Assembly: GCA_014801585.1 (NCBI GenBank)
Contig: JAAVDX010000021.1
Location: forward strand, 20,148 to 84,147
Source: Bacteroides sp.
GTDB lineage: Bacteria > Bacteroidota > Bacteroidia > Bacteroidales > Muribaculaceae
Direction: 5' to 3'
DNA: 64,000 nt
Shown here: positions 7,147-63,265 of the stretch, one piece after another
Layout: each line of letters opens with the position of its first letter
Position numbering within the stretch: the first letter of the stretch is position 1
Made by a program: the position numbers and the translations under genes
Notes under the pieces: model-generated
Told to the model about the DNA's origin: nothing
The model's database searches: none
The model's input: the letters and a program-made list of their open reading frames with translations, nothing else

Positions 7147-7608
7147 ATGGCATACCTCACACAAGAAGGATACGACAAGAAAATGCAGGAACTCGCCGAA
7201 CTCGAGGCACAGCGTCCCGCCATCAAGGCTGCTATCGCTGAGGCACGCGACAAAGGCGACCTTTCCGAAAATGCTGAATACGATGCGGCCAAGGAAGCTC
7301 AGGGTCTTCTCGAAATGAAGATTGCCAAACTGAAGGAACTCGTAGCCAACGCACGCATCATCGACGACTCTCAGCTCAACACCGACGAAGTGCAGCTTCT
7401 CAATAAAGTGACTATCAAGAATCTCGCTAACGGAATGGTAGTGACCTACACTATCGTCACTGAGAGCGAGGCAAACTTCCGCGAGAACAAACTCGCATCG
7501 ACCACACCCATCGCAGCCGCTCTGATCGGTCATAAGGTGGGCGACGTAGTCACCTGTCAGGTGCCGGTCGGCGAGATGAAGTTTGAAATCATCAAGATCG
7601 AAATCTAA
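7147..7608 (+). CDS. greA: Transcription elongation factor GreA
   Basis: MAYLTQEGYDKKMQELAELEAQRPAIKAAIAEARDKGDLSENAEYDAAKEAQG... Confidence 0.96.
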   Translation: MAYLTQEGYDKKMQELAELEAQRPAIKAAIAEARDKGDLSENAEYDAAKEAQGLLEMKIAKLKELVANARIIDDSQLNTDEVQLLNKVTIKNLANGMVVTYTIVTESEANFRENKLASTTPIAAALIGHKVGDVVTCQVPVGEMKFEIIKIEI

Positions 7609-7621
7609 GGAGGCCGCAGAA

Positions 7622-8014
7622 ATGACTATTTTCTCAAAAATCATAGCCGGAGAGATCCCCTGCTATAAGATTGCTGAAAATGATAAATTCTTCGCATTTC
7701 TCGATATCAACCCGGTCAACTGGGGTCACACCCTGGTAGTGCCCAAGCAGGAGACCGATTATATCTTCGACCTCTCCGACGACGAAATCGGCGAGATGAT
7801 GAAGTTTGCGAAGAAAGTGGCCGTAGCGATTAAAGAAGCTATGCCCTGCCGCAAGGTCGGAATGGCCGTAATCGGCCTGGAAGTGCCCCACGCCCATATC
7901 CACCTCATCCCCCTCAAGCAGGAAGGCGACATGGACTTCTCCAAAAAGATCTCCGACCCCGACCCGGAAAAGATGAAGCAGATCGCCAAAGCAATCTCCG
8001 GTGCCGTAAAATGA
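7622..8014 (+). CDS. HIT family protein
   Basis: MTIFSKIIAGEIPCYKIAENDKFFAFLDINPVNWGHTLVVPK...VPHAHIHLIPL (HxHxH). Start chosen at ATG 7622 rather than the overlapping upstream ORF start. Confidence 0.93.
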   Translation: MTIFSKIIAGEIPCYKIAENDKFFAFLDINPVNWGHTLVVPKQETDYIFDLSDDEIGEMMKFAKKVAVAIKEAMPCRKVGMAVIGLEVPHAHIHLIPLKQEGDMDFSKKISDPDPEKMKQIAKAISGAVK

Positions 8015-13093: not shown

Positions 13094-14539
13094 ATGATCC
13101 CCCTATCTGAAGATTTCATTGATTCTCTAAAGAATATTCCGTCGGTAGATCGGGCGGCTCTCGCGGCAGCCCTCGACACTCCTCCATCCGTAAGTATTCG
13201 ACGCAACCGCCGCAAGTCGGCAGTCTGCCCCGATGTGGCCACGACCGATGGGCTTACTACCGCTCCGGTCCCCTGGTGTGAAGAGGGGATCTATCTGAAT
13301 CCCCGGCCGGTCTTTACGCTCGATCCGATGCTGCACGGGGGAGCCTATTACGTGCAGGACGCCTCTTCCATGATCTATCAGCAGGTAGCCGACCGACTTT
13401 GCAGCGTCCTTGCCGAGGAGGGAATTTCCGAACATCCGCTCACTCTCGACTTCTGCGCTGCACCGGGCGGTAAGACTACTTCTCTTATCAATGCCCTCCC
13501 CGACGGATCTACGATCGTAGCCAACGAATTTGTGGCCGCGCGCGGAAAGATTTTGCGGGAGAATCTTGAGAAATGGGGCTATCCCAACGTCATCACTACC
13601 GGCTGCGACTCTTCCCGCTATGCGGCACTGCCCGAGATGTTCGACATCATAGCTATTGACGCACCCTGCTCCGGAGAAGGGATGATGAGAAAGGATGAAG
13701 ACGCACGCCGCCAATGGAGCAAGTCGCTCGTAGCCAACTGTGCCTCTCTCCAGCGCGAAATACTGTCGGATCTTGTCGGCACGCTCCGCCCCGGCGGTTT
13801 TCTCATCTACTCCACCTGTACTTTCAACACCTCCGAAGATGAGGAGAACTCTCTCTTTATCAGTGAGCAGCTCGGTCTGGAGCCGGTAGCCATAGATTCC
13901 CTGAATCTCTCGGGAATCGAAAAGGCCGGACGTGCAGTGCTGCCCGGTGTAGAGGGTCTGCGGTTTATGCCTCATCTTACTCAGGGAGAGGGATTATATA
14001 TCAGTGTGTTCCGACGTCCGATCGGATGTCATACCGAGCCCGAACCTCGGACACCCGGGAAGAAGAGTCGCAACAAAAACCGTTCTCAGAATCCCGAACT
14101 TACGGAGGCCATGAGGATGGAACTCAAGGGGTGGTTTGATCCAAAGATCTCACCTCGCTTCGAACTCTCCGACACCATGATTACGATGCTTCCCGAATCA
14201 GCAGCGGAAGTTGCTGATATGCTGCGTCGCTACGGAGTGAAGGTTACCGGCGCCGGATTGCCGGTGGCCGAGATTAAGGGTCGTATGCCGAAAGCGGAGG
14301 TAGTGCCCGATTCACGCCTTGCGCTCAATCAAGCCATGAATCCTACAGCCTTCCCCACAGCTCCCCTGAGCAAGGAGGACGCATTGCGCTTTCTCCGACG
14401 CGAATCATTTCCGCTCGATGGAAATATTCCAAAGGGTTATGTAATTGTAACTTATCAAGGCCTCCCGCTTGGGATAATGAAAAATCTGGGCAATCGTGCC
14501 AACAATCTTTTCCCTACCGCATGGAAAATCCGGCTTTAA
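13094..14539 (+). CDS. RsmF/NOP2-type rRNA cytosine-C5-methyltransferase
   Basis: YYVQDASSMIYQQV, LDFCAAPGGKTTSL, IAIDAPCSGEGMMRKDEDA, LIYSTCTFNTSEDEE; C-terminal PUA-like region. Confidence 0.92.
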   Translation: MIPLSEDFIDSLKNIPSVDRAALAAALDTPPSVSIRRNRRKSAVCPDVATTDGLTTAPVPWCEEGIYLNPRPVFTLDPMLHGGAYYVQDASSMIYQQVADRLCSVLAEEGISEHPLTLDFCAAPGGKTTSLINALPDGSTIVANEFVAARGKILRENLEKWGYPNVITTGCDSSRYAALPEMFDIIAIDAPCSGEGMMRKDEDARRQWSKSLVANCASLQREILSDLVGTLRPGGFLIYSTCTFNTSEDEENSLFISEQLGLEPVAIDSLNLSGIEKAGRAVLPGVEGLRFMPHLTQGEGLYISVFRRPIGCHTEPEPRTPGKKSRNKNRSQNPELTEAMRMELKGWFDPKISPRFELSDTMITMLPESAAEVADMLRRYGVKVTGAGLPVAEIKGRMPKAEVVPDSRLALNQAMNPTAFPTAPLSKEDALRFLRRESFPLDGNIPKGYVIVTYQGLPLGIMKNLGNRANNLFPTAWKIRL

Positions 14540-30436: not shown

Positions 30437-30559
30437 GCCGAAAAATCCCCCCGGGCAACAAGTAATCGGAAAACTTAAAAGTATAACGTGGCAAAAGGAC
30501 ACGGACAAGCACAGCAAATCAACACATAATATCTTATAAATCAGCTATAAAAAGAAAAA

Positions 30560-30668
30560 GATTAATTGTCATCACGACAACTAATCCTCTAACCTTAAAT
30601 CTAATACCATGAAAAACACATGCAAAATTAATACTTTTCCCAATAATCACCAAATTTTTCAGCGATAA
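30560..30668 (+). other. Hairpin + CTAACCTTAA leader-like element with micro-ORF MKNTCKINTFPNNHQIFQR (copy 1)
   Basis: Hairpin gattaattgtc-atcac-gacaactaatc, then ctctaaccttaaatctaataccATGAAAAACACA. Confidence 0.55.
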
Positions 30669-56531: not shown

Positions 56532-57041
56532 TCACTCACCATCCGAAAAGACAACCTTTCCCGAATGAGAATTTATAATTTTGACCGATTGATATACCGC
56601 CGGATCTCCTTTAAATGTCATACTGAACTGCCTCAGGATACTATCCGAACCTCTGGCCACACCGTGGATAACCATATCATCTCTACCATCCATCATTCTG
56701 GAATCAAACTCCCCGAAGAGATACGACGGACAGATCTCATAACCGAGGCCCTCGAGAACTCGCCCGGCTAACCTATACGACGGGAGCGCCGCTATCGAAT
56801 CCAAATCATGGTCAATACACGCAACTATTTCATCAGCGCTAACATCGCTGGCCGCAGACCCTGACCCAGCCTCCTCTTTAGAATCATCTATAAATGGATA
56901 AACCAAAAGGGCGATAATTCCGAGTACAAGCACAACTGCCTTCACGGTATCCCTCTTCTCCCAAAGGTAAGAGATAATCAAAATTATCACCAACGCTCCA
57001 GCGCTTATTGGTGTGCCGAACATTATCCACAACATATTCAT
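56532..57041 (-). CDS. Hypothetical two-TM protein (paralogue A)
   Basis: Shares DxxSxDEIxAxIDxDxDSIAALPSYRLAGRxLxxLGYxIxPSYLF...VYQSVxIINxxSGxVVFSD with 58097-58603; start placed at MNMLW because TAACTTTG lies just upstream in 57071-57078. Confidence 0.65.
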   Translation of the reverse strand: MNMLWIMFGTPISAGALVIILIISYLWEKRDTVKAVVLVLGIIALLVYPFIDDSKEEAGSGSAASDVSADEIVACIDHDLDSIAALPSYRLAGRVLEGLGYEICPSYLFGEFDSRMMDGRDDMVIHGVARGSDSILRQFSMTFKGDPAVYQSVKIINSHSGKVVFSDGE

Positions 57042-57070
57042 CTCTCCGATATTAAAAAGGTTGTCCAGTA

Positions 57071-57078
57071 CAAAGTTA
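57071..57078 (-). promoter_or_regulatory. -7 element TAACTTTG upstream of paralogue A
   Basis: Reverse complement cttaactttgtactggacaacctttttaatatcggagagATGAATATG. Confidence 0.5.
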
Positions 57079-57099
57079 AGAAATTCATCCGACCCATGC

Positions 57100-57310
57100 A
57101 AACTTCCGCCGAATCAACCCTATTACGAACCCCAATCTCAAAAGGGCCCTTCCAATAAGAGCACTCTTCCAACAGTACCATACATCCCCCACCGAGTTAA
57201 TCCTTGGATAACCGGCCCGCTAACAGAGATAATCCTTAGACTACCAAACCACCCACCGAGATAATCCTGACCTATCCAATCCCCACCGAGTTAATCCTTG
57301 GACAGCCAAC
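57100..57310 (-). repeat. Degenerate ~30-32 bp tandem repeats, minus-strand core GGATTAACTCGGTGGG
   Basis: Minus-strand units ggattaactcggtgggg.., ggattatctcggtgggtgg.., ggattatctctgttagcggg.., ggattaactcggtggggg... Confidence 0.75.
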
Positions 57311-58096: not shown

Positions 58097-58603
58097 TCAC
58101 TTACTATCTGAGAAGACAACATATCCGGATTGAGTATTTATGATATTGACCGATTGATAAACCGGCGGATCTCCCACGAAGGTCATACTGAATCGTCGCG
58201 CTACGCTGTCGGCATCTCTGGCCACTCCACAGATAACCATATCATCTCTGTCCTCCATCATTCGGAAATCAATCTTCCGGAAGAGATATGACGGATATAT
58301 CTGATAGCCGAGACTATCGAGAATCCTCCCGGCCAACCTATACGACGGGAGCGCCGCTATCGAATCCATGTCACGGTCGATATTCGCAATTATTTCATCC
58401 ACACTCTTATCGCTGACCGGAGGACCTGATACGTCCGCCGACCGGGAATCATCCTCGCATTGCACGGCGATAAGAGCAATGATGAATATCAGAACGAGCA
58501 ATATCACCAATCCGGGTTTCTTCTTCCACAATAAAGCGATCAGAAGCACAAGGAATCCTATTGTGGAGCCCGGGCCGGCGCCGATTATCAGTAGCAGGTT
58601 CAT
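58097..58603 (-). CDS. Hypothetical two-TM protein (paralogue B)
   Basis: Paralogue of 56532-57041; promoter-like TAAATTTG upstream on the minus strand. Confidence 0.65.
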   Translation of the reverse strand: MNLLLIIGAGPGSTIGFLVLLIALLWKKKPGLVILLVLIFIIALIAVQCEDDSRSADVSGPPVSDKSVDEIIANIDRDMDSIAALPSYRLAGRILDSLGYQIYPSYLFRKIDFRMMEDRDDMVICGVARDADSVARRFSMTFVGDPPVYQSVNIINTQSGYVVFSDSK

Positions 58604-60783: not shown

Positions 60784-62093
60784 CACTACTGTCCACTAAA
60801 AATGGACGGGGTTAAAAATTAAATAAATTCGGTTCACAAGAACCATAGAGAACATTGACATTTTTGAAATTCGATTTGTCGAAGAGGTCTCTCAGATGAG
60901 TCTTGTCTGTAAGCGATATCCCAAGAATCTGAAGTACTTCATAGATGCTTCGCTCCAGTTTCATATCGTGCTGAACTATTGCTACAAGACAATAAGTAAT
61001 TATGGCACAATATATTTGAATCCGCACAGCATTTTCGGACGGACCCCAGAATTTCTTGATTCTAAGATGCTGCTTGATCCATTTGAAGAACAATTCCACA
61101 CTCCATCGGTTGCGGTAGAGGTCAGCAATGGTCTCAGCAGAAGCCGACAGGTTATTTGTGAGGATGATGTATCTTGTACCATCTTCCGGGTCTATACAGA
61201 TTACTTTCCGGAGTTTTTCGGGATAATCCTTTGAGCTTTTATAGACCGTAAAGTAACCGATGCAGTCGGAAACAACATTCTCAGGAAGCCTGCGTTTCCA
61301 GGTCTCGGGCTTGAATCTAACATTGGTTTTGGCTCGCACCACAAAGAACGCCTCAATGCGGTTGATGGTGTAGAGATTCTCAAAATCATTGTAGCCACGA
61401 TCAAAAATATAGTGAGCTCCTTTCTCGTATGGAATCTCAGGCATTGCCTTTGAATCGTGGAGTTTAGCAGGGGTAATATGCACGAATGCAGGGACTTGTG
61501 CCTCCACATCGTAAAGAGTGTGCATCTTGATGCCGCCCTTATGCTTACGGAATTTTGCCCATTCAAATACCGAAAGGCAGAGATCGATGGTTGTGGAATC
61601 AAAGGCATAGACGTGGCCGTCCAGCTCGAAGATTTTCTAGATTCTGCGCTTACGTGCCTCCGAAATCATGAAGAACGCAAACTCTTCGAATATGCGGTAG
61701 TCACGTTGTTCGTTGGCTTTGCTAAGATTGCTCCTCGTTACAGATTTTCCAATCCCGAGATGATAGAGTTTCCCGGCATGGGCTTCCATTGCAACGATGA
61801 GGTCACGCAGGCTCTCACGATTGGAGAGTTGGCCAAACATCAGCGTAAGTAGTTGATTCCAACAAGTATAGCTTTTCACATACTTGTCACCATTATACTT
61901 ACGTACCAAATAATTGAAGTGATTACGATCCGAGAACTGGACTAATTGGGCGAAAACGTATTTGTCTTTATTCATAATGGTCTGATTCTGACCGCAAAGA
62001 TAAAATCAAATCCGTTGACTCCAAATTTCTTCACAACAAATTGAATTTCAAAAATTTCAAAGAACTCTTATGATTTTTTAGTGGACACTAATG
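60784..62093 (-). mobile_element. IS4-family-like insertion sequence, ~1310 bp
   Basis: Terminal inverted repeats CACTACTGTCCACTAAAAA / CATTAGTGTCCACTAAAAA (17/19); flanking direct repeat ACTGGACAA (60775-60783, 62094-62102). Confidence 0.88.
60812..61975 (-). pseudogene. DDE transposase (IS4-like, DUF4372-type N-terminus) interrupted by an in-frame TAG
   Basis: ORFs 61637-61975 and 60812-61525 share one frame; across the TAG (61637-61639) it reads ...ISEARKRRI*KIFELDGHVYAFDSTTIDLCLSVFEWAKFRKHKGGIKMHTLYDVEAQ... Confidence 0.85.
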
Positions 62094-62099
62094 ACTGGA

Positions 62100-62215
62100 C
62101 AACCTTTTTAATATCGGAGAGATGAATATGTTGTGGATAATAATAATAAGCACACCAATAAGCTTGGGAGCGTTGGTGATAATTTTGATTATCGCATACC
62201 TTTAGGGGAAGAGGC
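62100..62215 (+). pseudogene. 5' remnant of a third paralogue of the 56532-57041 gene
   Basis: aatatcggagagatgaatatgttgtggata...gtgataattttgattatcgcatacctttag = NIGEMNMLWIIIISTPISLGALVIILIIAYL*. Confidence 0.85.
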
Positions 62216-62323
62216 ATATTGTGACAAAATTAAAATGTGCCTTAGCATTTCACCATTTATAGATGCCAAAGAAAAATTCACAATAAATAAATTAGATTAC
62301 TAACTTATATCAAATATTTTTTG

Positions 62324-62331
62324 TATCTTTG
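62324..62331 (+). promoter_or_regulatory. -7 element TATCTTTG upstream of ncRNA candidate
   Basis: aatattttttgTATCTTTGcagtcgcagacc. Confidence 0.55.
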
Positions 62332-62335
62332 CAGT

Positions 62336-62660
62336 CGCAGACCGCATCACAGAAGCCCCGGTCTGGGGTTAAGAGAGGTGGGATGCAACGACATAATATA
62401 AAGCGTTTACTAGGCGCTTGATTCTTGACTATCGGGAATTCTCGCAAAATTCACATTGGAGTCAAGGATGAAGCAACGGTAGATGCCCGTGGATATGTAT
62501 ATACCTGTATTTAGCACGAACTCCTGGAGGAGTTATGGCTGAATACTATAATCACATATTCAAGCGTGGGCTTCTGCGTTGCCGTCCAACTCCAATAGGC
62601 AATGCGAGAAGCCTCCGATAGTAGGACGAGCAACGGTAACAGGCACTCACGCTTTTTTTG
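62336..62660 (+). ncRNA. Candidate structured ncRNA (~320 nt), family not recognised
   Basis: Promoter-like start, several stable stems (cagaccg/cggtctg; aagcgtt/ggcgctt; attcttgact/agtcaaggat; ggcttct-gcgttgcc/ggcaatgcgagaagcc) and a closing aagcgtg/cacgctt stem followed by a T-run; no convincing ORF. Confidence 0.5.
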
Positions 62661-62708
62661 TAACTGCTCGAATTTGGAGAAGCCTATAGAGCAATCTGAC
62701 ACTTGCTT

Positions 62709-63265
62709 ATGTCACGAGGGCTAACGTATAATGTAGACATCGTAATGTGCATTGACTGCACAGGCAGTATGGGCGACCTGCTTGACACCGTCAAAAAAAT
62801 GCGCTCAAATTCTATTCTGACCTCAAAACGCGTTGCGATGCTAAGGGAAAAGAAATTTCAGACCTCCGCATTCGCGTAATTGGATTCCGAGATTTGGGTT
62901 ATGATAAGGAAAATGCCATTGTCGACAGTGGCTTCTTGTCTATACCTGAGCAAGAAGAAGAGTTCAAGTCGCTCGTAAACTCTTTTATTCCTTCGGGAGG
63001 TGGACCAGAACCAGAGTCGGGTCTTGAAGCTCTTGCAATGGCAATAAATTCTGACTGGACAAAGGGAGGCGACAAGCGTCGTCACGTTATCGTTGTGTGG
63101 TCTGACGCGTCTACCCATACCCCTGAAGAATGTGGAAGAGAAAATCCCCTCTACCCAACAGAAGCCCCTGCCAATCTTGACGAATTAACTGATTGGTCGG
63201 ATTCCTGTTGCTTTGAGGGAGTCGATCAGGCGCTAACCCGCCCCATGCCACAGTACCACATTTAG
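62709..63265 (+). pseudogene. vWA-domain protein, frameshifted at an A7 tract and apparently 3'-truncated
   Basis: MSRGLTYNVDIVMCIDCTGSMGDLLDTVKK (MIDAS DxTGSM), then the other frame NALKFYSDLKTRCDAKGKEISDLRIRVIGFRDLGYDKENAIVDSGFLSIPEQEEEFKSLVNSFIPSGGGPEPESGLEALAMAINSDWTKGGDKRRHVIVVWSDASTH. Confidence 0.82.

Follow-up and report, generated by a model that had tools for sequence, protein, structure and literature searches.

The window analysed here is a 64,000-nucleotide (nt) stretch of the Bacteroides sp. (Muribaculaceae) contig JAAVDX010000021.1, and towards its end, directly ahead of a vWA gene, lies a region of densely paired repeats on the forward strand. An earlier reading of the sequence (the original prediction) described this region as a stand-alone noncoding RNA of ~320 nt with its own promoter and a terminator-like end, possibly tied to the vWA module. 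We establish computationally a family of such RNAs, its promoter and terminator layout, its leader position, and two sets of base pairs within it. The window RNA is one copy of this apparently undescribed Bacteroidales leader RNA family, and it may serve as an attenuation switch. Its parts are as follows:

62324-62659, + strand: the RNA region as a whole, a structured RNA of ~325 nt
62324-62331, + strand: promoter -7 box TATCTTTG (TAnnTTTG)
62338-62390, + strand: 5' domain, with CAGACCG (62338-62344) opposite CGGTCTG (62359-62365) and an overlapping CCCC/GGGG hairpin, pseudoknot-like
62401-62419, + strand: hairpin H0, AAGCG(T)/(G)CGCTT, from AAGCGTT at 62401 and GGCGCTT at 62413-62419
62401-62406 with 62649-62654, + strand: outer rod helix P1, AAGCGT/ACGCTT, an alternative pairing to H0
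62422-62469, + strand: Domain 1, with stem S1 of TTCTTGAC (62422-62429) and GTCAAGGAT (62461-62469)
62428-62435, + strand: segment 1 of Domain 1 (guide-like), ACTATCGG
62439-62446, + strand: apical loop of Domain 1, TTCTCGCA
62455-62462, + strand: segment 2 of Domain 1, ATTGGAGT
62473-62488, + strand: GCAACGGTAGATGCCC, rod partner of GGGCTTCTGCGTTGC (62568-62582)
62490-62561, + strand: middle apical hairpin, variable in sequence, with covarying pairs in the RNAalifold consensus
62562-62659, + strand: Domain 2 and terminator, with the T-stem AAGCGTG (62562-62568)/CACGCTT (62648-62654)
62578-62587 with 62624-62634, + strand: stem S3 of Domain 2, GTTGCCGTCC/GGACGAGCAAC
62589-62596, + strand: segment 2' of Domain 2, ACTCCAAT
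62603-62610, + strand: apical loop' of Domain 2, TGCGAGAA
62615-62622, + strand: segment 1' of Domain 2, CCGATAGT
62653-62659, + strand: run of seven T after the T-stem
62666-62692, + strand: small post-terminator hairpin GCTC...GAGC just 5' of the start codon, aligned in most copies, partly by eye

The region contains only short, overlapping open reading frames (ORFs), none of them plausible, and folding bears out the structured RNA: its 331-nt transcript region reaches -130.8 kcal/mol, compared with -91 ± 5 kcal/mol for 100 dinucleotide shuffles (z -7.56), none of which folded as well. Transcription would start a few nucleotides upstream of 62338. The 5' domain is kept in the own-family alignment (A1) and is more variable or shortened in other families. 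The elements listed in the original prediction are all present at or next to where it had put them (TATCTTTG, CAGACCG/CGGTCTG, AAGCGTT/GGCGCTT, TTCTTGAC/GTCAAGGAT, AACTCC/GGAGTT in the middle hairpin, GGCTTCTGCGTTGCC/GGCAATGCGAGAAGCC, and AAGCGTG/CACGCTT), as is the duplicated GCAACGGTA at 62473-62481 and 62630-62638. Several of these stems are mutually exclusive, as the 15-bp hairpin GGCTTCTGCGTTGCC/GGCAATGCGAGAAGCC, the two copies of GCAACGGTA, and three AAGCGT/ACGCTT pairings contest the same strands. Between the terminator and the start codon, most copies carry a second small hairpin (e.g., GCCAACGAGAGGATGACCGCGGC) that falls into a few sequence classes (L006-L032); it may affect translation initiation or provide a site for pausing or for a protein.

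Comparison of homologues separates the competing stems into two sets. The first, which we refer to as the rod, joins the outer AAGCGT to ACGCTT, segment 1 to segment 1', TTCTCGCA to TGCGAGAA, segment 2 to segment 2', GCAAC to GUUGC, and GUAGAUGCCC to GGGCUUCUGC. Among 28 sequences, 96.9% of the rod cells are paired and 18 of its 46 pairs show two-sided changes, whereas sliding the partners by 1-3 columns reduces pairing to 36-45% and none of 500 shuffles reaches the pairing or covariation score. Since homologues keep the pairs to this extent, the pairing is not due to chance. The second, local set comprises H0, S1, A1, the T-stem, S3, and A2 and is 95.8% paired (28 sequences), with S3 itself at 97.5% and compensatory changes in five of its ten pairs. 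Across 121 copies, pairing reaches 97-99% at the five core positions of segment 1/1', most of them with all four Watson-Crick types, and 97-100% and 99-100% at the inner pairs of H0 and P1, respectively. The S1 pairs 24:66, 26:64, and 27:63 are among the best covariation partners, and columns 73-76 pair with 174-177 (GCAACGGTAGATGCCC/GGGCTTCTGCGTTGC) in 99-100% of a 296-copy alignment, the same pairs being seen in the 121 copies; the figures for segment 2 rest on the 121-copy and 28-sequence alignments rather than on the 296-copy one. Covariation among homologues, named in the original prediction as a check, was tested against an approximation of a tree-based null in place of R-scape, and eight pairs pass (segment 1, segment 2, and one apical-loop pair; E 1e-8 to 0.03).

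The rod and local sets are thus each supported at >95%, on the same strands, and the repeated GCAACGGTA supplies the two competing partners. Shared positions pair with both partners in ~86-99% in most columns, the lowest being 73% at column 61 (~290 copies). In the 296-copy alignment, both partners are kept in 97-99% for GUUGC (174-177) and in 89-99% for the terminator strand (244-247), and at column 177 all 11 of the copies departing from the GUUGC consensus still pair with both. Column entropy is 1.76 bits for the rod-only segments versus 0.41 bits for the dual-partner columns, a low value that is expected if dual pairing freezes the sequence.

The helices found only in the rod are hypervariable, with complementarity kept. 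Copies with >97% identity elsewhere share 80% identity in the middle hairpin but only 43% in segment 1 and 50% in segment 2. Hypermutation of this code is not general, as about half of 13 pairs with homologous downstream DNA keep it exactly, two of these at 80-81% downstream identity. The orthologous loci L011 and L013, which encode a Cys-rich ribosomally synthesized and post-translationally modified peptide (RiPP) and a radical S-adenosylmethionine (SAM) system, present a matched replacement at two sites ~150 nt apart: both code segments differ, with genes 98% identical and the middle hairpin 100% identical. An identical code also recurs before unrelated genes in other genomes. An orthogonal-code model is unsupported, since, in a permutation test, copies of one genome did not tend to avoid each other's codes (segment 1 was the same in 4/482 pairs within genomes and in 41/5083 between genomes), and a bridge-RNA guide model was dropped because both loops co-vary and complement each other.

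The family is widespread. BLASTN with the RNA identified two paralogues in the source genome and gave hits in most of the related genomes (114 of 199). A sequence-profile model found seven copies in the window's own incomplete genome, up to 19 per genome elsewhere, and positives in 30 of 247 well-assembled Bacteroidales genomes from some 15 families. An exact 25-base core is present in at least 118 genome-contig stretches, with hosts including Bacteroides acidifaciens, B. rodentium, Paraprevotella clara, P. xylaniphila, Xylanibacter rodentium, Hallella mizrahii, Prevotella lacticifex, and Phocaeicola oris. Rfam 15 scans of the whole window, of 62000-63000 at permissive settings (best E 5), of 15 distant loci, and of 7 named-species loci gave no match on the RNA at the gathering threshold or permissively, which rules out a known Rfam family. 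The sole matches in those scans were tRNA and FopS, neither on the RNA, and an alpha_tmRNA line in the permissive scan reached 7.7 bits (cut-off 50 bits; E 5). The original prediction had been unable to recognize tmRNA, RNase P RNA, signal recognition particle RNA, or a group II intron here, and likewise none of these had an Rfam or ARAGORN match on the RNA. Plasmid and phage collections gave no match apart from one viral-contig pattern match, in which one copy of the RNA core lies in an 85-kb contig (L320 near 540; IMGVR_UViG_3300021319_000137), perhaps in host flank or in a prophage. No description of the family was found in the literature searched, with subscription papers and supplements lying outside that search.

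The position of the copies is highly regular. Of the 270 copies that could be used, 240 are followed by a gene on the same strand and 10 by one on the opposite strand, the median gap being 61 nt, whereas the orientation of the upstream gene is random (96/85); 30 copies have no same-strand gene nearby. TAnnTTTG is the -7 motif of Bacteroides. A -7/-33 promoter has been described in B. thetaiotaomicron (PMC7366714). Of 287 copies, 257 have this box no more than 160 nt upstream of their core, compared with 24.3 expected in shuffles, and it is found in only 4/270 gaps before the start codon and 14/316 cores, although its absence from the gap is partly expected from the short length of the gap alone. 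Because the box precedes the RNA and rarely occurs in the gap, the downstream gene most likely relies on the promoter of the RNA. At the other end, a GC stem is followed by a T-run of at least four in 94% of copies. Thus, the promoter and terminator-like end of the original prediction hold, while its stand-alone status is less likely than a 5' leader, given the same-strand gene ~60 nt away in 240/270 copies with no promoter box of its own. We consider the RNA most likely a 5' leader rather than an RNA tied to vWA genes. A terminated ~325-nt transcript acting in trans on RNAs or proteins, with the downstream gene incidental or reached by low read-through, would agree with the promoter box and terminator-like end, with the copies lacking a nearby same-strand gene, and with copy-specific segments such as those of antisense control systems. 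It is nevertheless unlikely, both because of the placement of the other copies and because shared codes are not avoided within genomes.

Whether this new leader family works as a rod/terminator attenuation switch is, in our judgement, an even call. The TAnnTTTG promoter would drive an RNA that forms the 5' end of the downstream gene's transcript. In the local fold, each half would close upon itself and the 3' half would make the GC-rich AAGCGTG/CACGCTT stem directly before the U-run, thereby forming an intrinsic terminator. Lengthwise pairing of the 5' half with the 3' half in the rod fold would instead undo the T-stem, S1, and S3, so that nothing but a 6-bp outer helix would precede the U-run. 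Which fold is taken during transcription would then determine whether transcription stops, releasing the ~325-nt RNA, or reads through into a surface, secreted, or defence gene. As judged from the alignments, the T-stem and U-run compete with the alternative fold for strands that keep both partners. Transcription itself, the efficiency of termination, which fold is ON, the trigger or signal, and any role of the released RNA are what we infer from the sequence. Several points weigh against such a switch. With pairs enforced and pseudoknots ignored, the rod is predicted to exceed the local fold in stability by ~16 kcal/mol on average and is preferred in 79 of 81 copies, so a switch must be kinetic or else driven by a ligand or protein; the local fold would have to prevail either kinetically, during synthesis of the RNA, or with the help of a partner. 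In the modelled structures a stem precedes the U-run in both folds, and therefore ON and OFF would not be clear-cut. An automated terminator scan found none, a result that reflects its admission of only 3-8 nt loops. Furthermore, the upper helix of S3 and the apical loops, with one partner each, nevertheless show fair conservation (0.59-0.61 bits); conservation is therefore not wholly accounted for by dual pairing, and these parts are kept for other reasons.

A further objection is that most of the pairs could form together in one kissing (paranemic-like) fold. In such a fold, intramolecular or dimeric, S1/S3 and the small stems A1/A2 would keep the domains closed, and contacts through segment 1/1', segment 2/2', and the apical loops would join them; the RNA would be a module for structure or assembly, comparable to the ornate RNAs, rather than a two-state switch. 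The inter-domain helices (~6-8 bp each) do alternate with intra-domain stems, and best-partner covariation is seen among the pairs of A1, of A2, and of the apical loops. RNA-only multimers that contain kissing loops are also known in nature (PMC12286853). Even so, we find this quite unlikely, since GCAAC at 62473 and GCAAC at 62630 both track GUUGC and cannot coexist, nor can P1 and the T-stem, which share a strand. A more elaborate proposal, that two hairpin domains joined by alternating intra- and inter-domain half-turns carry a copy-specific, self-complementary three-part code and form a bistable, possibly heritable ON/OFF switch of surface, capsule, and methylase genes, amounting to RNA-based phase variation across Bacteroidales, is speculative and decidedly doubtful.

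The genes behind the RNA do not support a special tie to the vWA module, as vWA genes follow only 3 of the first 31 copies and the rest precede unrelated, mostly surface or secreted genes; on the contexts of these other copies we reject a vWA-specific RNA. Downstream genes are nearly always surface, secreted, or defence genes. The 125 non-redundant downstream proteins include 11 BspA-type leucine-rich repeat proteins, four type III-system DNA methylases, two UpxY/NusG antiterminators, two LytTR proteins, two Cys-rich radical-SAM target peptides (RiPP), DUF3575 (in a fimbrial operon with Mfa2), PEGA, proteins with a type IX secretion tail, and others. By a crude rule, a signal-like N-terminus is found in 63% of the first downstream genes versus 23% of background ORFs. 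Gene classes of this kind are often variably expressed. The RNA has conserved loops, and by Pfam the 125 proteins share no pathway that would point to a ligand. The UpxY genes behind some copies, the internal loops conserved beyond the needs of pairing, and the second conserved hairpin after the terminator would all suit a leader bound by a protein or by polymerase, for example in NusG-paralogue processive antitermination, with the fold acting as a fixed landing platform. A fixed platform needs no two exclusive pairing sets, however, and we regard this as very unlikely. Finally, a DNA-level element with inverted repeats that only resemble RNA structure, such as the end of a mobile cassette or a recombination site, is extremely improbable, because near-identical RNA cores before unrelated genes and one copy split by an integrative element are outweighed by a promoter box fixed on one strand, a strict strand bias to the downstream gene, acceptance of G-U pairs, and the lack of plasmid or phage-collection matches.

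The window RNA resembles several known systems in part. With attenuators and riboswitches that use terminator/antiterminator folds it shares a 5' leader site, two exclusive folds, a GC stem with a U-run, and the presence of many different genes under one leader type. It differs from them in its length (~325 nt), a near end-to-end strand exchange between its halves, up to 19 copies per genome, and the lack of an Rfam match, with no ligand or leader peptide identified. EAR, put, and LoaP-type antitermination employs structured leaders before surface polysaccharide and other accessory operons. The window RNA is likewise a structured leader before such operons, and UpxY genes are seen here, but it has no sequence or family match to these leaders and has its own 3' terminator and a two-state design. 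In the IS110 bridge RNA, each of two internal loops has one variable segment on its left and another on its right. This arrangement recurs in the window RNA, except that its loops complement each other, both vary, and the genes behind it are unrelated cargo; no IS110 recombinase is among the 25 commonest Pfam families of the 125 downstream proteins, and loop matches to target DNA were not searched. The plasmid antisense RNAs of the ColE1/IncFII type combine a conserved frame with fast-changing complementary loops. The window RNA does so too, but it holds both partners in one transcript and has no within-genome code avoidance. OLE, ROOL, and GOLLD are similarly large and ornate, with covarying loop-loop contacts, but they are larger and form multimers seen by cryo-electron microscopy (PMC12286853), whereas the window RNA is shorter, leader-located, multi-copy, and without an Rfam match to them.

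If the switch is real, a common, unnamed RNA family would govern many of the genes that gut Bacteroidales display to host, phage, and neighbours, including adhesins, fimbriae, capsule starters, modified peptides, and type III methylases, and would add an RNA layer to variation that is mostly explained by invertible promoters. It would also show, with unusual clarity for a natural RNA, two exclusive pairings that can each be seen by covariation. The exact core in isolates such as B. acidifaciens, B. rodentium, and P. clara makes the family testable now.

Two genes follow the window RNA in the same direction:

62709-63265, + strand: vWA gene, frameshifted and shortened (pseudogene), with intact 226-aa homologues at L004 and L025
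63438-63851, + strand: GIY-YIG domain gene (Pfam PF01541, E 3e-9)

At L004 and L025, a PP2C-like gene follows the vWA gene, and no such gene is present at this place in the window. A protein similar to the window GIY-YIG protein is directly behind another RNA copy (L040). In L062 (G075:C9:40000-57000), a phage-like or integrative and conjugative element-like insertion lies inside an RNA copy (7418-7635 and 13233-13417), which is split at GTAGATGCCCGTGGTTAT, a short core being duplicated. The element carries genes for a tyrosine integrase (PF00589), a G2P-like Rep protein, and an AlpA-type helix-turn-helix protein, and the RNA gene seems to have been used as its attachment site. Directly upstream of the window RNA region is a broken transposase-like remnant (60812-61975, - strand) of two ORFs of 237 and 112 aa. 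Paralogous membrane-protein-like genes are found at 56532-57101 and 58097-58603 (both - strand), with a third fragment of the family at 62090-62230 (+ strand) just upstream of the RNA, which suggests local duplication. The window also contains an Rfam match at 30552-30619 (- strand) to BTncRNA_FopS, a Bacteroidetes paralogous small RNA family.
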